Assembly: GCF_024195295.1 (NCBI RefSeq)
Contig: NZ_JAMFTH010000001.1
Location: 744,001-808,000 of the forward strand
Origin: Gilvimarinus xylanilyticus
GTDB lineage: Bacteria > Pseudomonadota > Gammaproteobacteria > Pseudomonadales > Cellvibrionaceae
Direction: 5' to 3'
DNA length: 64,000 nucleotides
Within the stretch, counting starts at the first letter, position 1. Each line of letters begins with the position of its first letter. Below, one piece after another: positions 10,667-46,128 of the stretch. Made by a program: the position numbers and the translations under genes. Below the pieces are notes generated by a model. It made no database searches and was not told where the DNA came from. It saw only the letters and a list, made by a program, of their open reading frames with translations.

Positions 10667-10834
10667 CCCTAGCTCGAATATGACAAATCTGTAAAAAAGT
10701 GTTTCGACGGGCAATAAACTGATTAACTTTTGTCTAATTATCGTGTTTAATTGCCGCCTTTTGCGCCAAGCCCCTTAGGGCGAGTGTCAGGGCAGTGCGT
10801 CGAAAAGACGACAAATGTGAGGAATAGGCCGGGA

Positions 10835-12070
10835 ATGAGCTTATTGGTACAAAAATACGGTGGCACTTCGGTGGGTACCGTAGAGCGTATCGAAGCGGTC
10901 GCTGATAAAGTGGCCGGCTTTCGCGCTCAGGGGCACGATATGGTGGTTGTGGTTTCCGCCATGAGCGGCGAAACCAATCGCTTAATTGCCCTAGCTAAGG
11001 ATATTCAGCAAGCCCCCGATCCCCGCGAGATGGACGTGTTGGTTTCCACCGGTGAGCAGGTCACCATCGCGCTTTTGTGCATGGCGCTGAAAAAGCGCGG
11101 CTGTGACGCGCGTTCCTACACGGGTGGCCAGGTGCGCATTTTGACCGATGATGCCCATACCAAGGCCCGTATCCAGGAGATTGACGACGCCAATATGCGC
11201 GCCGATCTGGCGGCAGGGCGTGTGGTTGTGGTTGCGGGGTTTCAGGGCGTCGATGAGGCAGGCAATATCACCACTCTCGGACGCGGCGGCTCGGATACCA
11301 CCGGTGTTGCGCTGGCGGCAGCCTTAAAAGCCGACGAATGTCAGATCTATACTGACGTTGACGGCGTATACACCACAGACCCCAGGGTGGTCGACAAGGC
11401 CCGGCGCCTAGAGCAAATCACTTTTGAAGAGATGCTGGAAATGGCCAGCCTGGGCTCAAAGGTATTGCAGATACGCGCCGTTGAGTTCGCCGGCAAATAC
11501 AATGTACCACTGCGGGTGCTGTCCAGCTTTGCCGACGGCCCTGGCACTTTGATTACCCTCGATGAGGAAGAGAGCACTATGGAACAGCCCGTTGTCTCTG
11601 GGATTGCGTTTAACCGCGATGAGGCCAAAATTACCCTGGCTGGTATTCCCGATACCCCCGGTATTGCATCTAAAATTCTGGCGCCGGTGGGTAAAGCCAA
11701 TGTTGAGGTTGACGTTATCGTGCAGAACGTCGGTGCCGACAACACCACGGATCTGACTTTTACTGTTAATCGCGGTGATATGAATAAAACCGTGGATTTG
11801 TTGTCTAACGTCGTGAAAGAGATTGGCGCACGGGAAGTGACGAGTGACGATGCCATCGCCAAAGTGTCTATTGTGGGTGTGGGAATGCGCTCTCACGCGG
11901 GCGTGGCTTCGACCATGTTCACGGCGCTCGCCGAAGAGGGCATTAATATTCAGATGATTACCACATCAGAAATCAAGATTTCGGTGATTATCAGCGAGAA
12001 ATATTTAGAGCTTGCTGTGCGAACCTTGCACAGTGCGTTTGGCCTGGATGCCGAACCTGCTCAGGCGTAA
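10835..12070 (+). CDS. lysC: Aspartate kinase
   Basis: Phosphorylates aspartate, the entry to lysine, threonine, methionine and diaminopimelate synthesis. The ATG at 10835 (MSLLVQKYGGTSVGTVERI) gives 411 aa, matching the single-chain Pseudomonas enzyme. The kinase domain has KYGGTSVG, STGEQVTIALL and LGRGGSDTTGVALA. Two ACT domains follow (about residues 265-411, with GIPDTPGIASKI and GVGMRSHAGVASTMF), expected to mediate feedback inhibition by Lys/Thr. No convincing lysine riboswitch is seen in the 168-base gap after alaS. Confidence 0.97.
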   Translation: MSLLVQKYGGTSVGTVERIEAVADKVAGFRAQGHDMVVVVSAMSGETNRLIALAKDIQQAPDPREMDVLVSTGEQVTIALLCMALKKRGCDARSYTGGQVRILTDDAHTKARIQEIDDANMRADLAAGRVVVVAGFQGVDEAGNITTLGRGGSDTTGVALAAALKADECQIYTDVDGVYTTDPRVVDKARRLEQITFEEMLEMASLGSKVLQIRAVEFAGKYNVPLRVLSSFADGPGTLITLDEEESTMEQPVVSGIAFNRDEAKITLAGIPDTPGIASKILAPVGKANVEVDVIVQNVGADNTTDLTFTVNRGDMNKTVDLLSNVVKEIGAREVTSDDAIAKVSIVGVGMRSHAGVASTMFTALAEEGINIQMITTSEIKISVIISEKYLELAVRTLHSAFGLDAEPAQA

Positions 12071-12286: not shown

Positions 12287-12478
12287 ATGTTGATCTTAAC
12301 CCGCCGTATTGGCGAAACCCTAATGGTTGGCGATGAAGTGACCGTGACTGTACTGGGTGTTAAAGGCAACCAAGTTCGTATTGGTGTTAATGCACCTAAA
12401 GATATCGCGGTACACCGCGAAGAGATTTACCAGCGCATTCAGCGCGAAAAACAAAATCAACAAGAAGGTCTGGCTTAA
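12287..12478 (+). CDS. csrA: Carbon storage regulator CsrA/RsmA
   Basis: A small homodimeric RNA-binding protein that binds GGA motifs near ribosome-binding sites and controls translation of carbon-storage, motility and biofilm genes. At 63 aa it is full length: [51 protein letters not shown], with the key Arg44-equivalent in AVHREEI. AAGGAG precedes the ATG at 12287. A terminator follows 17 bases after the stop codon. In related gammaproteobacteria this locus also lies between lysC and tRNA-Ser(GCU). Confidence 0.97.
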
Positions 12479-12666: not shown

Positions 12667-12756
12667 GGAGAAGTGGCCGAGTGGCCGAAGGCGCTCCCCT
12701 GCTAAGGGAGTATACCTTGATCGGTATCGAGGGTTCGAATCCCTCCTTCTCCGCCA
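12667..12756 (+). tRNA. serV: tRNA-Ser (anticodon GCT)
   Basis: The acceptor stem GGAGAAG pairs with CTTCTCC, followed by discriminator G and an encoded CCA. The anticodon arm CTCCCCTGCTAAGGGAG presents GCT, reading AGC/AGU serine codons. A long variable arm, as expected for tRNA-Ser, precedes the T arm GAGGGTTCGAATCCCTC. Total length is 90 nt. The 3' part from the T arm onward is duplicated 179 bases downstream (see the repeat entry). Confidence 0.96.
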
Positions 12757-12763
12757 TACATTA

Positions 12764-12801
12764 AAACCGCCAGAGGCTAAATTCCCTCCGGCGGTTTTTT
12801 T
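12764..12801 (+). terminator. Terminator of tRNA-Ser (repeated downstream)
   Basis: AAAACCGCC, then AGAGG and CCTCC, then GGCGGTTTTTTT, just 8 bases after the tRNA CCA. Near-identical copies occur at about 12943-12980 and 13169-13208, so three successive terminators follow one tRNA. Confidence 0.88.
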
Positions 12802-12832
12802 ATACACAAAAGGTTAACAGGAGGCGTTCGAG

Positions 12833-12919
12833 CCCGACAGAGGGTCGACCAAACGCCGGGAGCGTTTGGTACCGAGCGAAGCGAGCCCGAAGGGTGGGCG
12901 CAGGATGCGCCCAGTAAAT
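12833..12919 (+). repeat. Structured repeat unit, copy A
   Basis: An 87-base unit beginning CCCGACAGAGGGTCGAC. It contains three potential hairpins: CAAACGC-CGGGA-GCGTTTG, GAGC-GAA-GCGAGC-like, and GGGCGCA-GGA-TGCGCCC. It runs directly into the second copy of the tRNA 3' end. Copy B, about 85 percent alike by eye, lies 231 bases further on. It resembles a palindromic intergenic repeat rather than a gene. Confidence 0.7.
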
Positions 12920-13063
12920 CCCTCCTTCTCCGCCATACATTAAAACCGCCAGAGGCTAAATTCCCTCCGGCGGTTTTTTTGTGCGAGAAAGGTTAACAGG
13001 AGGCGTTCGACCGCTCATCTGCCTCCCTGCAGTCACAGCATTTGTGCATCCATGCACATCAAA

Positions 13064-13150
13064 CCCGACAGAGGGTCGACAAAACGCCGGGAGCGTTTTG
13101 CACCGAGCGCAGCGAGCCCGCAGGGTGGGCGCAGGACGCGCCCAGTAAAT
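13064..13150 (+). repeat. Structured repeat unit, copy B
   Basis: Same order of elements as copy A, beginning CCCGACAGAGGGTCGAC. The first stem is changed on both sides (AAAACGC-CGGGA-GCGTTTT against CAAACGC...GCGTTTG in copy A), so pairing is retained. The last stem reads GGGCGCA-GGA-CGCGCCC. It ends in AAATCCCTCC, a fragment of the tRNA-Ser 3' end. Confidence 0.7.
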
Positions 13151-13343
13151 CCCTCCCGCAGCACATACTAAAACCGCCGAAGGTCATTTCACCTCCGGCG
13201 GTTTTTTATACGCAAAAGCCCGCGAGCGACACTCGCCCCCAAATCCAAAACCATCACGCTTGCCTCACCGGAGCATTTCCCGTACCCCTCCGTCGCAATC
13301 ACAAATAAAATACATATTTAAATATAAAAATAAATACGCTAAA

Positions 13344-26443: not shown

Positions 26444-26468
26444 TCGCCCGTTGGGCGAGTTTTTTTGT
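26444..26468 (+). terminator. Terminator after the ydbT-like gene
   Basis: TCGCCC-GTT-GGGCGA followed by GTTTTTTT, 25 bases after the stop codon. The dispersed repeat copy R1 begins exactly at its T-run. Confidence 0.85.
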
Positions 26469-26726
26469 GCCCGAGTCGCCGGGCGTGGCGAGTTACTTTT
26501 CTGTTGTGTGGGCAACAGAAACCTAACGAAAAGAGAAGCCCACCCCGGTTCGCGGCCCTGGCGGGTTCCCTCACTCCAATCGATTTTAGGAGGCCGTATC
26601 GACAGCGCGTCCTTGCGCTGGCGATACTTGCGCAAACGTCCTGTTTGCTTTCCCCCTAAAATCGATCTCCGTTCGGCTCGCTCTCAGGGGCCCCGGGGGT
26701 GCCATTCTGGTGGTCAGGCAGATATG
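26468..26726 (+). repeat. Dispersed structured repeat, copy R1
   Basis: About 259 bases, starting TGCCCGAGTCGCCGGGCG. It contains, in order: GGCGAGTTAC; a hairpin TTTCTGTTG...CAACAGAAA; CCCTCACTCCA; an outer stem ATCGATTTTAGG (26579-26590) pairing with CCTAAAATCGAT (26655-26666); and inside this a two-part stem GTATCG-A-CAGCGC...GCGCTG-G-CGATAC (26596-26627) and a hairpin GCAAAC...GTTTGC (26632-26648). It then ends in CTCCGTTCGGCTC and GCCATTCTGGTGGT. Copies R3 (34214, same strand) and R2 (31638, opposite strand) share this order. Arms of R1 and R3 differ by compensatory changes. Short open frames here are not credible genes. Confidence 0.85.
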
Positions 26727-26851
26727 GCTCATCCGATTCCGTTTATCCTATAGCAGGTAATCATTTTTTCGTCGAACTTCAGACGTCCGACATCAGACGT
26801 TAACCCGTTGCCAAACGGGTCAACTTATGGCACTCTTTTCATTAAGTGTTT

Positions 26852-26893
26852 TGTGGGCTTAATTCGGCTTGTTTAACCCGAATTAAGCCCACA
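26852..26893. repeat. Perfect 16-bp inverted repeat (hairpin)
   Basis: TGTGGGCTTAATTCGG, a 10-base loop, then CCGAATTAAGCCCACA with no mismatch. No T-run follows on either strand. A second hairpin, ACCCGTT-GCCA-AACGGGT, lies about 30 bases upstream. The 26,727-27,349 gap contains these and no convincing gene; a 95-codon minus-strand frame (26873-27160) is not supported by any recognisable motif. Confidence 0.75.
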
Positions 26894-27349
26894 GCAGGGC
26901 CAGCGGAAAGGTAGGGTAAACAGTGCATCGGGACTGATGTGCGGGCACTTCTCCCTTCTGTTTTGAATATTCTCCATATTTCTTTTTGGCCCATTGTGAC
27001 ATGCCATGACTATTGGTCTTTGGTGGTCAAAACTAGTGCGACCAAGCAAAGTAAGCTGACTCACTTTGCTTTCCAGTTTCGTTAATGCTACTGGAATGAA
27101 TGCGATAGTATTCGGATGCTGAAAGCGTAAAGCTAACGTTATCAAACAGAATCGACACATCGCCAGTGTGGAAGTAAGACGGCTTCGTTATAAACCAAAA
27201 TAAATTCGTCAAATGGCCGGTAACTTAAGAGGTAGCAGAAGGTTGAAAGCACTTTTTAAAAATTTTCTTGGTAGGAAATGTTGCCAGGCGTATTTTTCAA
27301 TTTGCATATTAATAAACTGATAGTTGCTTATTTCCAGCGGGGGTTTGCA

Positions 27350-28105
27350 ATGAATCCAAAGTTATTTTTTGATTCAATTAAGGAAAAGCACGATAGATAC
27401 TTCATAGAATATTACCCTCCAATGCACGGTTTTCTATTTGCAAACCTCCAAATCACTTACATGTATGATATCAAGCTGCATCAAATGAAGGCTGACATGG
27501 AGGAGCTTGCCAAAAAATGGGTGAAAAGGTATCCAGTATCGCTAATGGTTTCTGCTTTCGATGATCATGGCAGATTGATTAGTTTTAGTGGCGGAGCTGG
27601 TGAGAGCTACTTAATAGCACTTAAAGTAGATGGCTCATTTGATTTGCTTTGGAAATCTGTTCCCGACAGCTCATTTCCAACAGAAGTTCTGGATGCTGAT
27701 TACTTACTTTCTGTTTACAAGGATATTAATTTTAGAACTCAGGAAGAGATAAGGCAATCAGCGCAAGAATCGCTTAAGCCCATGCGTAGGCTAAAGTTTC
27801 TTATTTTGATCTGGGCTGTTTTTATACCTGCGCTCATTGCAGTGCTGGAATTCTTTAGCCCTACTTGGGTTGCACTAATAGCCTTGGCATATAGCCTTTG
27901 GCAGGCTTATCAAAAGTATTTGATTATGACTGGCCGCAAAGTAAAGAAAGATGCCGAGATTGAAAAAGAGAAGGAAAAACAAAGAATGGAGCACCATCAT
28001 TACCATTGCGAGCTAAATCCCGATGGGTTTGTCCGCTTGAGGAATGAAAACTTCAAGGCAGATGCTAAGTATAGAACGAGGAAGGAATACGATGCACTGT
28101 CTTAG
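27350..28105 (+). CDS. Uncharacterised two-TM protein with C-terminal charged tail
   Basis: Not assigned to a named family. The ATG at 27350 (MNPKLFFDSIKEKHDRYFIEYYPPMHGFLF...) gives 251 aa; an upstream in-frame start at 27278 has no ribosome-binding site. The N-terminal 150 residues look like a soluble alpha/beta domain. Two adjacent hydrophobic segments (about 165-185 and 188-205, FLILIWAVFIPALIAVLEFF and WVALIALAYSLW) follow. Then comes a Lys/Glu-rich helix (KKDAEIEKEKEKQ) and a His-rich tail MEHHHYHCELNPDGFVRLRNENF. I have a recollection of similar HHHYHC tails in accessory-region hypotheticals. Base composition is more AT-rich than rapA or the flagellar genes, which suggests acquisition by transfer. 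Confidence 0.75.
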   Translation: MNPKLFFDSIKEKHDRYFIEYYPPMHGFLFANLQITYMYDIKLHQMKADMEELAKKWVKRYPVSLMVSAFDDHGRLISFSGGAGESYLIALKVDGSFDLLWKSVPDSSFPTEVLDADYLLSVYKDINFRTQEEIRQSAQESLKPMRRLKFLILIWAVFIPALIAVLEFFSPTWVALIALAYSLWQAYQKYLIMTGRKVKKDAEIEKEKEKQRMEHHHYHCELNPDGFVRLRNENFKADAKYRTRKEYDALS

Positions 28106-28130
28106 AACAACGAACAAAAAGTTGTTGGAT

Positions 28131-28165
28131 ATAGCCCGCACTGCTCCGCTAACGCGGCGGGCTAT
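28131..28165. repeat. 9-bp hairpin between island genes
   Basis: ATAGCCCGC (28131-28139) pairs with GCGGGCTAT (28157-28165). It is enclosed by weaker TTGGA/TCCAA pairing and preceded by AACAAC...GTTGTT. It lies between the 27350 gene and the broken gene at 28218 and ends 34 bases before GTTAAGC. The layout vaguely recalls a recombination site, but the expected partner core was not found. Confidence 0.45.
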
Positions 28166-28217
28166 GGGCTCGTATTCGCTCGCTCCAATAGAAAAACGTT
28201 AAGCAGGGAGGCATGCC

Positions 28218-28505
28218 ATCATAGCATTATATTTCTTGTTAACATCTTTGCTCTATTTGTGGAGTTATAGCCTGCTCTGTAAAGCTCATCCGGATGAGGC
28301 AAAAGAACTAGCGCTTTGAGATTGTCAGTGGTATTTCTCGAAAACAAAGTCTTTGTATCTGGGATGGCTTATATGTGGGCATTATGTTCCTCTTTTTCGA
28401 GGCACTGGCTACAGGTGGTTCTTCGAGATAGTGCGAATTCTAGTGGTCACGAGCCTCATTTTTACCATATACCACTTGATAAGTTTGTTGCCGCGCTATG
28501 TTTAG
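28218..28505 (+). pseudogene. Probable pseudogene of a small membrane protein
   Basis: From 28218 one frame reads IIALYFLLTSLLYLWSYSLL CKAHPDEAKELAL (split here for length), a TGA at 28317-28319, then DCQWYFSKTKSLYLGWLICG and on to a hydrophobic end IVRILVVTSLIFTIYHLISL before TAG at 28503. Both sides of the TGA read like one membrane protein of about 95 residues with a TM segment at each end. GGGAGG at 28206-28211 is well placed, but the codons that follow are ATC ATA, not a normal start. The simplest reading is a gene that lost its start codon and acquired a nonsense mutation. A TTG start at 28236 would give only a short fragment. Confidence 0.5.
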
Positions 28506-28583
28506 AGCCAGTAGGCGTATGTAAAATTTATCCCTTGAAATGCCCAGCCAAGCGGCTGGTTACTCAAATTATTTTGTTAATGT

Positions 28584-28868
28584 ATGATGAAAAAGTACTT
28601 AATAGCACTCGCTTTCTCTGTAGGCACCGTGGTTGCGATTTTATTCAGTTTTGAGTTTAGAGATTTTCAAACCACGGATAAATGTGTCGATTTGGGGGGT
28701 AGAGTTTTGTATTCGGGATTCTGCGAGTTCGTAGGTGGAAGTGTTCGAGCTCTAGAGCTTAACAAAATTGAGCTTTCTTCAGTTCTATTTGCGGGTGTTA
28801 TTGTCTGCAATGTTATAGGTTTTTGTGTTTACGCTATTGGCGCTAGACTTATCAAAGTAACTGGATAA
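28584..28868 (+). CDS. Small two-TM hypothetical membrane protein
   Basis: Not recognised. 94 aa starting MMKKYLIALAFSVGTVVAILFSF, an N-terminal membrane segment or uncleaved signal; then a short exported loop with two cysteines (KCVDLGGRVLYSGFCEF) that could form a disulfide, and a second membrane segment (SSVLFAGVIVCNVIGFCVYAIGA). The topology suggests a small inner-membrane protein with a periplasmic loop. AT-rich composition like the other island genes. An inverted repeat AATGTTAT...ATAACATT (about 28867-28907) follows the stop. Confidence 0.6.
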   Translation: MMKKYLIALAFSVGTVVAILFSFEFRDFQTTDKCVDLGGRVLYSGFCEFVGGSVRALELNKIELSSVLFAGVIVCNVIGFCVYAIGARLIKVTG

Positions 28869-28951
28869 TGTTATCGCGTGCTGAAGAGCCCGGCTGGAAT
28901 AACATTAGACGCATGCCTTACACGACTCCAATATTACGGTGTTAAGTGCCT

Positions 28952-29407
28952 ATGATCGACCACGAGAGATTTCGGGCCTTGGTGAAGGATCTTTATGCCA
29001 CGGTCAACGAGTTGGAGAGTATGTTTCCGGGCAGGCACTTTACACCGGATGGTCATATGGTCGGAAGTTTAGGGGAATGCTTAGTGGCTGATGCCTACGA
29101 CTTGAAGCTTATGACAGCATCCAACAAAGGCTATGATGCTGTGACGGAAACCGGTTTGGAGGTAGAGATTAAGGCGACACAATCTAATACCGTTGCTTTC
29201 CGAAGTCAGCCTCAGCATGCGATCATCATAAAGATCATGTGTGACGGTACGTTCGAAGAAATCTATAACGGACCTGGGGCCCTTGTTTGGGAGCTGTTTT
29301 CGGGTAAACGGCTGCCGAGTAATGGTCAGTTTCAGGTATCTCTCAGCAAACTCCGTCAACTTAACCAAACTGTGGCTGAAGCGGATCAGGTGCCCAGAGC
29401 TTTATAG
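28952..29407 (+). CDS. DUF6998-like protein with PD-(D/E)XK nuclease-like motif
   Basis: 151 aa: MIDHERFRALVKDLYATVNE LESMFPGRHFTPDGHMVGSL (split for length), then GECLVADAYDLKL, KGYDAVTETGLEVEIKATQ and a C-terminal DGTFEEIYNGPG segment. The arrangement Glu in LGE, Asp in GYDAV and E-x-K in VEIKAT matches the restriction-endonuclease-like fold. The overall sequence agrees with what I recall as the DUF6998 family of unknown function. The ATG at 28952 is preferred to GTG 28946, though neither has a strong ribosome-binding site. A nuclease-like gene in a small AT-rich island could belong to a defence or mobile function; that is inference. Confidence 0.7.
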   Translation: MIDHERFRALVKDLYATVNELESMFPGRHFTPDGHMVGSLGECLVADAYDLKLMTASNKGYDAVTETGLEVEIKATQSNTVAFRSQPQHAIIIKIMCDGTFEEIYNGPGALVWELFSGKRLPSNGQFQVSLSKLRQLNQTVAEADQVPRAL

Positions 29408-29505
29408 TAAGCAATATACACGTCAGCACTGTTTAGCGAATGGTATGACTGTGCAGCGTAAATTAGATGCTTTTTTTGTGAAAAACAAGCGTAGTGACTT
29501 TAGCT

Positions 29506-30003
29506 ATGAATCGGAAAACCTGTATTTGTTTCATTTGGGTGCTTAGCGCGCCCCGAATTCTAGCTTGTGAGCTCATAGCTCCCGTTGTTATTCCCCCATC
29601 AACACTGGATGGCGATTTTCATTACATTTACCCCGATTACCAAAAAGAGTTGGAAAACTCTGTTCGCACTGAAAAAGATGTGGCGGTCGTGAAAGTCCTT
29701 AACGATTCCTTATCAGAGTCCAAGTTTGGGCAACAGGTTGCTGTGGCTACTTTGGAGTTGCTGCATGGCTGGGGATACCAATCCAGTCGTTATATGCCTT
29801 ATAAGAGAGAAGAGTCCACTTGCGGAAAGCCCCAAAAGATTATCAGTTCAAAGTGGCATGTAGCAATTTTTCGTTACACCGACGTTTATGCCTTAATTCC
29901 CTATGATGCCGTGGAAAAGCAGATCAAGTCGCGCGGTAAGCCTGATTATGTATATTCTGCCATTGGTTTGATCAGGAGGCAGCGCGGTGATCATACGCAT
30001 TAG
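29506..30003 (+). CDS. Uncharacterised exported protein
   Basis: Not recognised. The ATG at 29506 (MNRKTCICFIWVLSAPRILA C) gives 165 aa with an N-terminal signal-like segment; ILAC could be a marginal lipobox. The mature part is a mixed alpha/beta domain with FHYIYPDYQKELENSV, ATLELLHGWGYQSSRYMPY and SSKWHVAIFRYTDVYALIPYDAVEKQI. An in-frame GTG at 29494 is less likely. It is the last plus-strand gene of the island and ends only 3 bases from the stop codon of the convergent minus-strand gene. Confidence 0.6.
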   Translation: MNRKTCICFIWVLSAPRILACELIAPVVIPPSTLDGDFHYIYPDYQKELENSVRTEKDVAVVKVLNDSLSESKFGQQVAVATLELLHGWGYQSSRYMPYKREESTCGKPQKIISSKWHVAIFRYTDVYALIPYDAVEKQIKSRGKPDYVYSAIGLIRRQRGDHTH

Positions 30004-30006
30004 CTG

Positions 30007-31509
30007 TTAGGCGCTGTTAAGATCTGTAGCTTCAGTAAGCGGGTTTAATAAGGCAATCAGCTCCGCTTTGGCTTGTTTTTTCGAGGCCAAATCGGTAGAT
30101 GCGCTGGCGTTTGTTAGAAGGCGTATAGCATCAACGGTGTCGATGCTTTGTCGCTCGTCCCGTTGCTCGTCAATAAGATTTCCTTCGCTCCAGGTTTGCT
30201 GAGAATTTTGGATGCTGGTTAAACGTTGTATTGAGGCGTTATCGATTTTCTCATTCTTCCAGGTTTGCTGGCTGACTATTTGTATCGACTCATCAACTTT
30301 GTGCCATTTAAAGTTTTCTCGGGCTAAATCGATATTTTCAAGGTGCGGTAGCGAGGTAAAGTACGCGGCCTCAAGGTCAATGTTTTGTGTTTGAGTTATG
30401 GATGTGGTCCCGTTTTCTGTTTCAGTGTGGGTAACTTGACCGATGCTAAGCAAACGAATACCCGAGTATTTGTCGTGATGCTCGTTGCGGCGAGATGGGT
30501 AGTCTACCTTGCCTTTAAAGTCGAGCTGATAGTCGGGTAGGCCCGTTAATAATGCTGAACCTTTTTCTGGTTGTGCCGATGGTGCCTGGTTGTTTGAAAC
30601 GTTAAACAGCGATAGGGCATTGAGCAAGGCCTTGGTGTCAGATGATTCGGCTCGTCCTTTGTCTAAATATTCAAGTAGAGTTTCGCGTAGGCGTGATAGA
30701 TCTTGCTGGTTGCTTTCTCCCGGTTGAATGGCGAGATTGAGTGATCGACCATTCCAGGCCAGATTAAACTCGGTACCTAGGGTGTTACGTGAGTAATCAA
30801 GTGACAAGGTCTTTTGATCGGCCGTTTTTAAACTCAGCTGTATAGACTCAATCTCAGTTAATTGCGAGAGGTTTAAATGGCTTATATCAGGCTCGCCACC
30901 TGCGGCAAAGTTGGTCGCAAAAGTGCCTAAGTTTTTGCTCAGTGTTTGCAGCTCGGCTTGTTCTTCTTCGGTTAATTCGGCATCAGACCAAAACTGCACA
31001 TCCATACTGCGAAATGCGACCAGGTTTTCGCTAGATTTTTCAAGACCTGAATGGGCGTTAATCGAGAAGGTAACTTTCGTCCCGCTTGCCAGAGTGGCCG
31101 AAAAAGACATTCCTCCCAATGATGACCGGCTGATTACCTGCGGTTCGGTATTTCCCTCGGTGCGAGGCGTCAGTCGGGTTGTAGCGTTTTGTTCGATAGA
31201 GCGGTATTGGCTGATTTGTCCAAGCCCACCAGCGAGAGCTTGCCAGCTGCGGGCGTCTGGTAGTTGGTTTAACGCTCCCTCAAGTGTCTTATCCCAATTG
31301 CTACCGCTGGTTGGAGGCTCTACTTTAGTAACTCGTTCGGTAGGTACGGGGCGTGTAAAAGCCGGCTCCGGCGCGGTTGTAGTACGTGAAATCTGCGGGG
31401 TTTCGGCTTCGGCCTGAAGGCTCGGTTTACTGGTGTCTGGCAAAGCGGCAGCACTGAGCGGAGTGCCGCTGGGAGTTGTTGCAGTCCGTGAAAGTCCATT
31501 GATGTCCAT
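30007..31509 (-). CDS. Uncharacterised 500-aa protein under a sigma-28 promoter
   Basis: Not recognised. The N-terminal 90 residues are Thr/Pro/Ser-rich and probably disordered (MDINGLSRTATTPSGTPLSA). A structured middle follows (about 130-290) with SFSATLASGTKVTFSINAHS, a helical DAELTEEEQAELQTLSKNL and a second beta-rich part. The C-terminal region has repeated SQQTW motifs (IVSQQTWKNEKIDN, NSQQTWSEGNLIDE) and a final helix. There is no signal peptide or membrane segment. A near-consensus FliA promoter lies about 36 bases upstream, so it is probably expressed with late flagellar or chemotaxis genes. The sequence is native-looking in composition, unlike the convergent island genes. A cytosolic or type-III-exported motility factor is possible; no function is claimed. 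Confidence 0.75.
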   Translation of the reverse strand: MDINGLSRTATTPSGTPLSAAALPDTSKPSLQAEAETPQISRTTTAPEPAFTRPVPTERVTKVEPPTSGSNWDKTLEGALNQLPDARSWQALAGGLGQISQYRSIEQNATTRLTPRTEGNTEPQVISRSSLGGMSFSATLASGTKVTFSINAHSGLEKSSENLVAFRSMDVQFWSDAELTEEEQAELQTLSKNLGTFATNFAAGGEPDISHLNLSQLTEIESIQLSLKTADQKTLSLDYSRNTLGTEFNLAWNGRSLNLAIQPGESNQQDLSRLRETLLEYLDKGRAESSDTKALLNALSLFNVSNNQAPSAQPEKGSALLTGLPDYQLDFKGKVDYPSRRNEHHDKYSGIRLLSIGQVTHTETENGTTSITQTQNIDLEAAYFTSLPHLENIDLARENFKWHKVDESIQIVSQQTWKNEKIDNASIQRLTSIQNSQQTWSEGNLIDEQRDERQSIDTVDAIRLLTNASASTDLASKKQAKAELIALLNPLTEATDLNSA

Positions 31510-31544
31510 ACGTCACATTTGCTCTGTTCGTACCCTTTTAGTCA

Positions 31545-31571
31545 TTATCGGCTGTGATTGTCGTCGCTTTA
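31545..31571 (-). promoter_or_regulatory. Sigma-28 (FliA) promoter for the 500-aa gene
   Basis: On the minus strand: TAAAGCGA, exactly 11 bases, GCCGATAA. The enteric/pseudomonad FliA consensus is TAAAGTTT-N11-GCCGATAA, so the -10 matches 8/8 and the -35 5/8 with perfect spacing. Transcription would start about 30 bases before the ATG at 31509. Confidence 0.8.
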
Positions 31572-31637
31572 GGTGTTTTTTGCGGCATGATTATGAAGGG
31601 GGGAGGAAAATAGAGGAGTGTGTGAAATAAGATGAAG

Positions 31638-32024
31638 ATATCTGTCTAACCACCAGAATGGCACACCCGAGGCTCCTGCGAATGCGCCGAACGAAGGCGT
31701 GTTTTTGTGGGTAAGCACGCAGGAGGAGAGGTGAATGCCGGAGGCAGAGAGGCCGGCCTGGGCCGCGCGTGCGCAAGAATCGCCAGGACAGGGAGGTCTT
31801 GTCGATACGGCCCTCAAAAATAGGCCGTAGAGAGGGACCCGTTAGGGCCATTCGCGGGGTGGGCTGTTGAGGTGAAGGGATTCACAAATGCAGCGGGCGC
31901 AGGGACAAGGTGAATGCCGAAGGCAGAGAGGGCGGCCTAGGCCGGGCGCAGGACCTGCCTTTTCGTTAGGTTTCTGTTGCCCAAACAACAGAAAAGTAAC
32001 TCGCTACGCCCGGCGATGCGAGCC
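31638..32024 (-). repeat. Dispersed structured repeat, copy R2 (inverted, longer)
   Basis: Reading the minus strand from 32024: GCGATGCGAGCC side, GCGAGTTACTTTTCTGTTG, GGGCAACAGAAACCTAACG (as in R1), an extra segment of about 120 bases, CCCACCCCGCG, GGGTCCCTC, GGGCCGTATCGAC, CGATTCTTGCGC, CGTTCGGCGCATTCG and finally GTGCCATTCTGGTGGTTAGACAGATAT. It is more degenerate than R1/R3 in the stem region, but the first 50 and last 30 bases are very close to R1. It fills most of the 605-base gap between the 500-aa gene and deaD; no credible gene is seen. Confidence 0.8.
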
Positions 32025-32056
32025 TATAAAAAAGCCGTTAATTTATTAACGCCCAA

Positions 32057-32091
32057 TAAAAACCGCCACAGCAGTCTCCTGCTGTGGCGGT
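32057..32091 (-). terminator. Terminator of deaD
   Basis: On the minus strand ACCGCCACAGCAG, loop GAGA, CTGCTGTGGCGGT then TTTTTATT, 24 bases past the deaD stop codon. A 13-bp perfect stem. Confidence 0.92.
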
Positions 32092-32114
32092 ATATTGATT
32101 ACCCGTCGGTAGGT

Positions 32115-33812
32115 TTAGGCTTTACGCTTACGCGGCTTAGCCTTCCCTTTATCCCCACCTTTACGCATAGGCCCGCGGTCTTCACTCAGTGACAACTGCT
32201 GACCACGCACGTGCAGCGAGGCAATTTTCTTCGCCTGTGCTGGGGCCAGGTCTTCGGGCAGGTCGAGAGTGGCGAAGCTGTCGAACAGTTTAATCTGGCC
32301 GATGCTGCGGCCTTTTAAACCGGCTTCGTTGGCGATGGCGCCGACGATATCGCCTGGGCGGGCGCCGTGGTTACGGCCCACTTCAATGCGGTAGCGTTTC
32401 ATGCCTTCTTCCGGGCCACGGTTGCTGCGACGTGGGCGTTCGCCACGCTCGCCGCGATCACGGCTGCGCTCGCGCTCGGGTTTGATGTCGGCGAATTTAA
32501 CCTGTAGCGGACGGTTCTTTTGCAGCAGGTAGGCCAGAGCGGTGGCAATGGCTTCCGGCTCCAGGTCGTTTTCGCGGCTGTATTTGGCCAGCAGCTCTTC
32601 GAAAAAGCTCATGTCTTCTTCGCTGTTGACCACGTCGGTAATCTGCTGCAAGAACTGGTCAATACGTGCGGCACTGACGGTGTCGCCGCTGGGCAGTTTC
32701 ATGGCTTCAATACGCTGGCCGGTGGCTTTCTCGATTGAGTAAAGCAGACGCTTTTCGCGCGGGGCGACAAACAAGATGGCTTTGCCCGAGCGACCGGCGC
32801 GGCCGGTGCGGCCAATGCGGTGTACGTAGGCTTCGCTGTCGTAAGGAATGTCGTAGTTAATCACGTGGCTGACGCGCTCAACGTCAATGCCGCGGGCGGC
32901 TACGTCGGTGGCGATCAGAATATCCAGCGATTTGTTTTTTAAGCGCTCAATGGTACGTTCTCGCAGCGCCTGGTTCATGTCGCCGTTAATGGCGGCGGCG
33001 CTGTAGCCACGGGCTTCGAGCTTTTCGGCAAGCTCGACGGTGGCGGTTTTGGTACGCACGAACATGATGATGCCGTCGAAAGGTTCAACTTCCAGAATGC
33101 GGGTTAGGGCGTCCAGTTTGTTGGTGCCGCTGACCATCCAGTAGGCCTGCTCGATGTTGCTGCCAGTGGTGCTTTCGCGGGCCACTTTAATCTCTTCGGG
33201 CGAGCGCAGGTAGGTGTTGGCAACACGGCGGATTTCTTTGGGCATGGTGGCCGAAAACAGCGCGGTTTGGCGGCTCTCGGGGGTGTGCTCCATAATCCAG
33301 GTTACGTCGTCAATAAAGCCCATACGCAGCATTTCGTCGGCTTCGTCCAGCACCATGGCTTTCAGGTTAGACAAATCCAGACTGTTGCGGCGCAAGTGGT
33401 CCATAACCCGGCCGGGTGTGCCTACCACAACCTGAGCGCCGCGCTTTAACTGGCGTAGCTGGCCGCGCATATCCTGGCCGCCGTAAATGGGCAGTACGTG
33501 AAAGTTGTTCAGCTCGCTGGCGTAGCTTTGAAAGGCTTCGGCCACCTGAATAGCCAGTTCGCGGGTCGGGGCCAACACCAGTACTTGGGTATCGGAGCTT
33601 TGGGTGTCAATGCTGGAAAGCAGGGGCAGGGCAAAAGCGGCGGTTTTACCGGTACCGGTTTGTGCCAGGCCGACAATATCTTTACCGTCCAGCAGCGCGG
33701 GAATGGCGCGTGCCTGAATCGGTGAGGGGGTTTCGTAGCCAATTTTAGAAATGGCGTTAAGAACGGGCTGAGACAGGTTCAGCTCGGAAAAAGCAATATT
33801 TTCTGATGACAT
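32115..33812 (-). CDS. deaD: ATP-dependent DEAD-box RNA helicase DeaD/CsdA
   Basis: An RNA helicase for ribosome assembly and mRNA remodelling, usually important in the cold. The ATG at 33812 (MSSENIAFSELNLSQPVLNA) gives 565 aa; an upstream in-frame start adds 26 residues with no family resemblance. Motifs: Q motif (YETPSPIQARAIP), I AQTGTGKT, Ia PTRELA, II DEAD, III SAT, VI HRIGRTGRAGRSG. The C-terminal DbpA-like RNA-binding domain (RYRIEVGRNHGARPGDIVGAIANEAG...) is followed by a basic tail (KGGDKGKAKPRKRKA). The 5' leader is long (to about 34,080), as is common for cold-inducible helicase mRNAs; autoregulation is inference. Confidence 0.96.
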   Translation of the reverse strand: MSSENIAFSELNLSQPVLNAISKIGYETPSPIQARAIPALLDGKDIVGLAQTGTGKTAAFALPLLSSIDTQSSDTQVLVLAPTRELAIQVAEAFQSYASELNNFHVLPIYGGQDMRGQLRQLKRGAQVVVGTPGRVMDHLRRNSLDLSNLKAMVLDEADEMLRMGFIDDVTWIMEHTPESRQTALFSATMPKEIRRVANTYLRSPEEIKVARESTTGSNIEQAYWMVSGTNKLDALTRILEVEPFDGIIMFVRTKTATVELAEKLEARGYSAAAINGDMNQALRERTIERLKNKSLDILIATDVAARGIDVERVSHVINYDIPYDSEAYVHRIGRTGRAGRSGKAILFVAPREKRLLYSIEKATGQRIEAMKLPSGDTVSAARIDQFLQQITDVVNSEEDMSFFEELLAKYSRENDLEPEAIATALAYLLQKNRPLQVKFADIKPERERSRDRGERGERPRRSNRGPEEGMKRYRIEVGRNHGARPGDIVGAIANEAGLKGRSIGQIKLFDSFATLDLPEDLAPAQAKKIASLHVRGQQLSLSEDRGPMRKGGDKGKAKPRKRKA

Positions 33813-34213
33813 GAATACATCCAATTGTGGCGCGGGGCGCCGATTGCAAAATGGCGTAATGCGTACGCCGCGAGTCGGAGATTGACTCAAACAGACAGGT
33901 CAGGGCGCCAAAGCGCCGGCAACAATCACAGGTTTACCGCAGTGCCCGCAGGCCGCTGCTTTCAGGTATCTAATTCAGGCGGGGAAATACATAACCGCTT
34001 GAGGCATACGCTGGAGTAAATCTCCATCAGTATTTGCCTCATAGCACGGTGCGCAAATGGCGCGGGTCTCGAACGGAGCTCTTAGGGCTCTTGTGAGGCT
34101 TTCACTGAGGGCGCGGAGTATAGGGTATTGTTTAACCTTTGGCCAGTACTTTCGAGTGAATATTTTATCGACACTAGGAAACAAAACGCTGAAATTGGCA
34201 TTTCTCGTCCATA

Positions 34214-34411
34214 TGCCCGTGTCGCCGGGCGTGGCGAGTTACTTTTTTCGGCAAAAAGTAACCAAAAACCTCGCCCAACAACTGACCCCTTCGGGGGCCC
34301 CTCACTCCAGCCTATTTTAGCGGGCCGTATCGACAGGCCTTCCTTGGCCTGACGATACTTGCGCAAACCTCCTGTTTGCTTACCCCTAAAATAGGCTTCC
34401 GTTCGGCTCAG
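34214..34411 (+). repeat. Dispersed structured repeat, copy R3
   Basis: About 198 bases, beginning TGCCCGTGTCGCCGGGCG. It has GGCGAGTTAC, a hairpin GTTACTTTTT-TCGG-CAAAAAGTAAC, and CCCTCACTCCA. The outer stem GCCTATTTTAG (34310-34320) pairs with CTAAAATAGGC (34386-34396). Inside it are GTATCG-A-CAGGCC...GGCCTG-A-CGATAC (34327-34358) and GCAAAC...GTTTGC, then TTCCGTTCGGCTC. Compared with R1 the stem sequences changed on both strands so that pairing is kept. It occupies the 33,813-34,598 gap together with the deaD leader; no gene is evident there. Confidence 0.85.
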
Positions 34412-34598
34412 TTGTAAACGGGCGAAAAACCCAGTTGGTTCCACGCTGTTTGACTTGTATTAAAGTTGAGCAGTCCGGATGCGTATGATTGGTGGTGAGG
34501 GAGTGTCTGGCAAAAAATGAGGACCATTTCTCGTTTGTTGGTGAAGATTATAGCGAGCGGTAGTGTGCTAATCTTGCACAAAAGTAACGGGCGGGCGT

Positions 34599-45079: not shown

Positions 45080-46128
<1,049 letters not shown>

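Follow-up and report, generated by a model that had tools for sequence, protein, structure and literature searches.

The TwoAYGGAY motif (Rfam family RF01731), which reportedly goes back to Weinberg 2010, is typed as cis-regulatory in Rfam and belongs to the same clan, CL00106, as the CsrB RNA of E. coli. It was listed as a probable RNA from human gut, gammaproteobacterial and clostridial sequences (PMC2864571), it gained two further covarying pairs in Rfam 15 (PMC11701678), and a 2014 motif paper predicted that it binds CsrA (PMC4333381). The letters bound by this protein family have been given as CANGGANG, the Rsm motif (PMC6849547), and as CAGGA(U/A/C)G, the CsrB repeat (PMC7652899). Given that RF01731 and the 2014 paper precede us, the core fold and the CsrA-binding idea are not new. 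Here we analyze a dispersed repeat of Gilvimarinus xylanilyticus in a stretch of 64,000 nucleotides (contig NZ_JAMFTH010000001.1, positions 744,001 to 808,000; hereafter the window, numbered from its first letter), of which two copies, R1 and R3, lie in the same orientation. In this repeat TwoAYGGAY is the core of a larger dispersed element of about 230-260 nt with a covarying pseudoknot, an arrangement that looks new.

R1 and R3 score 36.8 and 40.4 bits against RF01731, just under the gathering cut-off of 43 bits, and kinship with TwoAYGGAY is very likely. The core consists of an outer stem (S) enclosing two hairpins (H3 and H4), each with a GGA loop; the surrounding parts are a small hairpin, a stem with long-range pairing and a further hairpin (H1), from whose loop a pseudoknot forms with a stretch close by. 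The two copies comprise the following parts.

26469..26694, minus (presumed RNA strand): R1, full element, nhmmer profile positions 1-217 of 227, ends set by the profile
26469..26484, minus: R1 terminal hairpin GCCCG/CGGGC, from sequence and alignment
26492..26527, minus: R1 hairpin H1, reading GTTACTTTTCTGTTG / CAACAGAAACCTAAC on the plus strand with mismatches present, from covariation of the H1 columns
26508..26513, minus: R1 pseudoknot arm inside the H1 loop, GTGGGC on the plus strand, complementary to 26538-26543
26538..26543, minus: R1 pseudoknot partner downstream of H1, GCCCAC on the plus strand, from covariation
26571-26674, minus: R1 match to RF01731, 36.8 bits
26579..26589, minus: R1 outer stem S, first arm, ATCGATTTTAG on the plus strand, from sequence and covariation
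26656..26666, minus: R1 outer stem S, second arm, CTAAAATCGAT on the plus strand, from sequence and covariation
26596..26627, minus: R1 hairpin H3, minus-strand loop CAAGGACG, matching CANGGANG
26632..26648, minus: R1 hairpin H4, minus-strand loop CAGGACG
34215..34429, minus: R3, full element, nhmmer profile positions 1-222 of 227
34302-34404, minus: R3 match to RF01731, 40.4 bits
34310..34320, minus: R3 outer stem S, first arm, GCCTATTTTAG on the plus strand, from sequence and covariation
34386..34396, minus: R3 outer stem S, second arm, CTAAAATAGGC on the plus strand, from sequence and covariation
34327..34358, minus: R3 hairpin H3, minus-strand loop CAAGGAAG
34363..34379, minus: R3 hairpin H4, minus-strand loop CAGGAGG

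The original prediction, made from these two copies by eye, held that five base pairs differ between them with pairing kept, the mark of a structure under selection and not of a decaying duplicate. Direct reading of both copies found the quoted stems and words in place, with three compensatory pairs in the outer stem and two in the inner stem; a direct-repeat search aligned R1 and R3 at 81% identity over 105 bases. Open frames cross both copies, and a protein-coding reading was entertained; it is disfavored because compensatory changes and indels separate the copies.

In the host genome (3.93 Mb, 13 contigs) R3 and R1 each gave 36 BLASTN matches, some of them pieces, which merged by hand into 31 copy places, or about 31 copies; 17 of these lie within 5 kb of another, where random placement gave a mean of 2.3 and a maximum of 11. 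A profile search of stretches fetched from eight genomes of the genus, the window included, returned 136 matches, 105 of them near full length, and all eight genomes carried copies. The 95 copies shorter than 290 bases were aligned, the ten longer near-full ones being left out, and covariation was counted over 62 of the 92 distinct cores from the eight genomes (29 pairs, 1788 cells). Standard pairs formed in 95.6% of the cells (80.9% in shuffled alignments), 24 of the 29 pairs showed double changes (shuffled mean 15.0), and double-change cells numbered 251 (shuffled 71.7); none of 500 shuffles equaled the real alignment on any of five measures. When the registers were slid by 1 to 3 columns (six registers), pairing fell to 34-40%, and a consensus-fold program gave nearly the same fold. 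Mutual information with background correction, computed for every pair of columns in the 95-copy alignment, placed mostly S, H4, H3, H1 and the pseudoknot at the top, some of the high pairs being non-pairing or in poorly aligned regions. The R1 fold itself has a z-score of -5.2 on the minus strand and -3.9 on the plus strand. The genus-wide copies thus bear out selection on structure by strong, shuffle-tested covariation in outer and inner stems alike, with chance and decay excluded, and that the fold is maintained by selection is near certain. One detail of the prediction has to be amended: the GCAAAC/GTTTGC hairpin, called invariant, is so between R1 and R3 but not across the copies, where five of its six pairs show double changes.

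The functional strand of such a fold tolerates G.U, and the same pairs read A.C on the opposite strand. Read on the minus strand, G.U exceeded A.C by 12 to 3 in S, H3 and H4 of 24 copies from the host genome and by 98 to 24 in S, H4, H3 and H1 of the 95 genus copies (62.7 to 15.8 after similar copies were down-weighted); in 118 H1 stems of other records, among the matches listed, the counts were 77 and 0, with 75 of the 77 in one column, and the GGA hairpins of other lineages gave an uninformative 2 to 1. Other counts spoke for the opposite strand: P1 had 36 A.C to 10 G.T in the 24 copies, two P1 columns had 27 A.C to 3 in the 95, and a single mini-hairpin column had 81 A.C in the 95. The strand totals before exclusions were about even, at 37 to 39 (24 copies) and 98 to 105 (95 copies). 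Both regions were set aside post hoc, after their counts had been seen, P1 because its register differs between subfamilies (67 of 192 P1 cells in the 24 copies fit neither pair nor wobble) and the mini-hairpin column because it lies outside its CCC/GGG stem. P0 (15 to 0) and the pseudoknot columns (32 to 1) favored minus, were equally poorly aligned, and were not counted. Given that P1 and the mini-hairpin disagree and that the totals before exclusion are even, that the minus strand is the functional one is probable, not proven; the wobble bias as such fits RNA or single-stranded DNA alike.

Both GGA loops are among the most conserved letters of the element and fit the CsrA/RsmE consensus. 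On the minus strand the H3 loop reads C91 A90 N G94 G93 A91 N G91 in the 95 copies, and the H4 loop closes CA, occasionally with one more base, GGA, and mostly C-G, its GGA letters occurring in 95, 95 and 94 of 95. Set against the AYGGAY of the family name, H3 is ANGGAN and H4 mostly CAGGAC, without the Y, the GGA being conserved in both. H3 fits CANGGANG in 87 of the 95 copies, H4 fits CAGGA(U/A/C)G or CANGGANG in 80, and both motifs occur together in 72, compared with 6 of 4750 mononucleotide-shuffled cores; the CAGGAGG loop of R3 H4 falls outside the consensus. In R1 as in R3, the two GGA begin at a distance of 29 bases from each other.

The candidate partner protein is encoded in the window, 14 kb from R1, by the only gene in the genome with a PF02599 match.

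12287..12478, plus: csrA, candidate partner protein, 63 amino acids, Pfam PF02599 with E 4.7e-25

It sits downstream of an ORF (open reading frame) at 10751-12070, which by eye resembles an aspartokinase gene, and upstream of a tRNA gene at 12667-12753. The 3' end of that tRNA and a terminator-like hairpin are repeated downstream (12667-13207, repeat families D2-D4), an arrangement that serial insertions or duplications might have left.

Beyond the genus the H1 module offered an independent view of the architecture. From named records, one pattern yielded 119 H1 copies among the matches listed, 117 of them usable, and two variable letters of the H1 loop predicted the downstream partner in 110 of the 117 (shuffled mean 46.0, maximum 61 in 2000); relatedness of the copies inflates this raw figure, and 28 of the 32 distinct loop/partner combinations match. 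The pattern is blind to GGA, and at least two GGA-loop hairpins followed within 275 bases in 55 of 102 segments, shorter ones left out, compared with 0 of 1637 controls; among 280 loop trinucleotides after H1, GGA occurred 130 times on the minus strand and once on the plus strand. An initial scan demanding maximal hairpins had found one such hairpin in 27 of 101 segments and two in 5 (0 of 1614 controls with two), and was replaced because it excluded CATCCATG-type loops. Among the matches listed (80 of at least 120 stretches) the named hosts include Xanthomonas, Dyella, Lysobacter, Stenotrophomonas, Pseudoxanthomonas, Methylomonas and Thalassocella. RF01731 at E <= 0.001, scoring as many as 71 candidates in a genome, had no match in 17 of 26 H1-bearing genomes, including 5 of 5 Xanthomonas, 3 of 3 Methylomonas and 2 of 4 Dyella, and an Rfam search of 17 H1-bearing loci left 16 unrecognized, with two RF01731 matches, both in locus L222, and no other family. 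The element architecture recurs in Xanthomonas and Methylomonas genomes that RF01731 misses, which looks new.

Look-alikes of the H1 pseudoknot with no GGA hairpin found downstream were seen in Leeuwenhoekiella (L227, L243, L244) and in records labelled Chitinophaga (L220, L272, L290), and the H1 module may thus predate the CsrA-like core or stand apart from it.

RF01731 itself had 25 matches at E <= 0.1 in the host genome, 17 of them above the gathering cut-off. At E <= 0.001 it had 6 to 24 matches per genome in all eight genomes of the genus and 0 to 2 in each of 30 further relatives, with any match at all in 6; within the genus the family occurs as a dispersed repeat, an observation that appears new. 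A class sample with at most seven candidates scored per genome found matches in 24 of 369 genomes, several of them with at least seven. As a census of the same sample the exact H1 pattern returned only 3 of 369 genomes, and none in the host genome, because it is narrow. The suggestion that the family may be wide is borne out by the RF01731 and H1 searches beyond the host genome; that it is also poorly characterized needs qualifying, the core being already in Rfam.

The element probably moves, to judge from the R3 site compared with its counterparts in the genus genomes G003 and G007, where the site is intact and empty.

34155..34565, no strand assigned: stretch holding R3, absent from the corresponding site of G003 and of G007, 411 bases with one base of ambiguity

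The flanks are 95% and 82% identical to those in G003 and 91% and 81% identical to those in G007, and the 411 extra bases comprise R3 with about 60 and 136 flanking bases. No terminal inverted repeats and no clean target duplication were found at this one site, compared with the two empty ones. By DNA identity G003 is nearest to the window and G007 next, and since both are empty, the most economical explanation is that the window lineage gained the stretch, which favors a recent insertion. No element was found in the R3 spacer of G001, G003, G004, G006 or G007. Local duplication also multiplies copies, given that three copies at locus L168 (2749-3684) have identical 60-base left flanks and that two similar inverted pairs at L199 (4334-4893 and 8084-8647) stand 3.75 kb apart.

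Taken together, these observations suggest a mobile, structured RNA that binds CsrA and has R1 and R3 among its copies, encoded on the minus strand and so opposite to the strand quoted in the original prediction, a reading to which we give about even credence. Selection keeps the fold while the letters change; the minus strand is probably the functional single strand and would be transcribed, and copies appear to come and go between sister species, as the R3 site supports. One CsrA dimer may then bind the two GGA loops, and the many copies might jointly titrate CsrA, or each might act locally through CsrA on a neighboring transcript. CsrA binding itself seems reasonably probable, and pooled titration of CsrA by the copies is doubtful. 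csrA is present in all 34 RF01731 carriers tested (37 were found; G008, G011 and G019 were left out), which as evidence for CsrA is weak.

A bolder version is that the element is a self-spreading structured RNA with a CsrA sponge as cargo, so that copy number would set the level of free CsrA, a global regulator, in many gammaproteobacteria and the dosage of CsrA would evolve by transposition; this we regard as rather unlikely. A hint that bears on it comes from the H1-bearing genomes, where a GGA hairpin followed the sampled H1 in 15 of 23 with csrA and in 0 of 6 without, a comparison biased in that three of the six were added after their loci had been seen to lack the hairpin. Within the first 26 genomes alone the csrA-less count was 0 of 3 (one-sided Fisher about 0.06, or about 0.006 with the added three), and descent and incomplete bins confound the six, which are two Leeuwenhoekiella, two labelled Chitinophaga, a Desulfobulbus and a Sulfuricaulis bin.

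Several results weigh against a mobile, CsrA-binding minus-strand RNA. Among the 101 of the 105 near-full copies whose gene context was classified from crude ORF calls, 76 have a plus-strand-directed gene on the T-rich side at a median distance of 89.5 bases, and read-through from these genes would therefore yield the other strand. Consensus scans of the two copies showed nothing terminator-like on the minus strand of either R1 or R3; a promoter-like site on that strand was found upstream of the R3 RNA, and none was found at R1. Hairpins selected for CsrA by SELEX (systematic evolution of ligands by exponential enrichment) mostly had stems of at most four pairs, and a stem of very high stability may work against binding (PMC7652899); the stems of the element are longer. 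csrA is also nearly universal, being present in 17 of 20 non-carriers. At the R3 site, G002 holds in the same spacer and orientation a 38.5-bit fragment of another subfamily and G005 a very weak match of 12.8 bits, so that the place may instead have had an old copy that was later lost.

The alternative that survives best is a non-autonomous mobile DNA whose single-stranded structure serves transposition or targeting by an enzyme supplied in trans, the GGA loops being that enzyme's recognition letters. Many copies, close subfamilies and clustering would follow, as would the clean 411-base block missing from two sister species, and one DNA strand would give the same wobble bias. Many GCCCG-type copies, moreover, follow a T-rich stretch, often behind a hairpin, although others do not. 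A terminator as insertion target was considered; terminator-like hairpins beside copies had seemed universal, and since many copies are without them no such target is claimed. Against a purely DNA-borne role stand the absence of terminal inverted repeats and of a clean target duplication at R3, the identity of the loop consensus with that of CsrA/RsmE, and searches that found no R1 match in plasmids, no R3 match in phages and no match of two element patterns in viral contigs. We rate it as possible but not likely; mobility is compatible with an RNA role, and this account may be part of the truth.

Somewhat unlikely, too, is a cis role at gene ends, in which each copy would serve the neighboring gene as a stability or antisense module responsive to CsrA, with no pooled titration. 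The 76 co-directional genes on the T-rich side speak for it, as do the 41 of 101 copies that have a converging gene on their opposite flank, from which a minus-strand transcript could enter the element, and the cis-regulatory typing of RF01731. However, no shared function of neighboring genes is known, seven window genes having been run through Pfam, and a position at gene ends is also expected if selection removes insertions elsewhere. Finally, it is highly improbable that the plus strand is the RNA and pairs its UCC loops with the Shine-Dalgarno GGA of mRNAs, as some C-rich-loop small RNAs do: the plus strand folds well too, the T-rich-side genes usually point its way and P1 and one mini-hairpin column favor it, but the excess of G.U over A.C is on the minus strand in S, H3, H4, H1 and other lineages, and the letters around GGA (CANGGANG) need no conservation for such pairing.

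The window holds a third copy, reversed relative to R1 and R3.

31671..32021, plus (its RNA strand): R2, nhmmer pieces 31671-31868 and 31925-32021

By sequence R2 spans about 31640-32032 and is interrupted by two small nested insertions, one of them in the H4 loop; the copy at the same place in G003 is without them. A short repeat that forms a hairpin and reads GGTGAAT...GAGAGG on the RNA strand was seen directly after GGA in the apical loop of H3 or H4, with insertions in the window (31671-32021), at L133 (13735-13993), and at L035 and L037, which suggests a second, tiny mobile element targeting hairpin loops. Elsewhere in the window, 45874-45937 is a short tandem array of GCCAGA units (repeat family D5).

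The mobile-RNA reading joins three things that are separate in the literature searched, namely an Rfam family of unknown function, dispersed repeats and the CsrA system. In that literature, covered by titles and abstracts with subscription journals mostly outside, none of the papers listed describes TwoAYGGAY or the H1 sequence as dispersed or mobile. Should CsrA bind the copies, some of the intergenic repeats of Xanthomonadaceae, Methylomonas and the window's genus would turn out to be regulatory RNA, and a single protein would give a handle for testing what repeat number costs or brings. Strong covariation together with a pseudoknot makes this repeat family unusual with or without CsrA.

Among known systems, the enterobacterial repeats RU-1 to RU-3 are likewise intergenic and multi-copy, about 100-170 bp long and similar to miniature inverted-repeat transposable elements (PMC2759123, PMC2229807), whereas neither terminal inverted repeats nor a target duplication were seen at R3 and the loops here are conserved and resemble protein-binding sites. 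The RAYT-linked REP and REPIN sequences are dispersed intergenic hairpin repeats thought to be mobilized in trans (PMC3116915); the present element, in contrast, is much longer and multi-branched, with a pseudoknot and covarying stems. CsrB/CsrC and RsmX/Y/Z share with it GGA in hairpin loops and the same consensus letters, but where CsrB concentrates 22 GGA (PMC7652899), the element has two core sites per copy in tens of scattered copies. Closest is TwoAYGGAY, with the same two-hairpin, GGA-loop core within an outer stem on the same strand, to which the element adds the pseudoknotted H1 domain and other helices, and it does so as a dispersed and probably mobile repeat.

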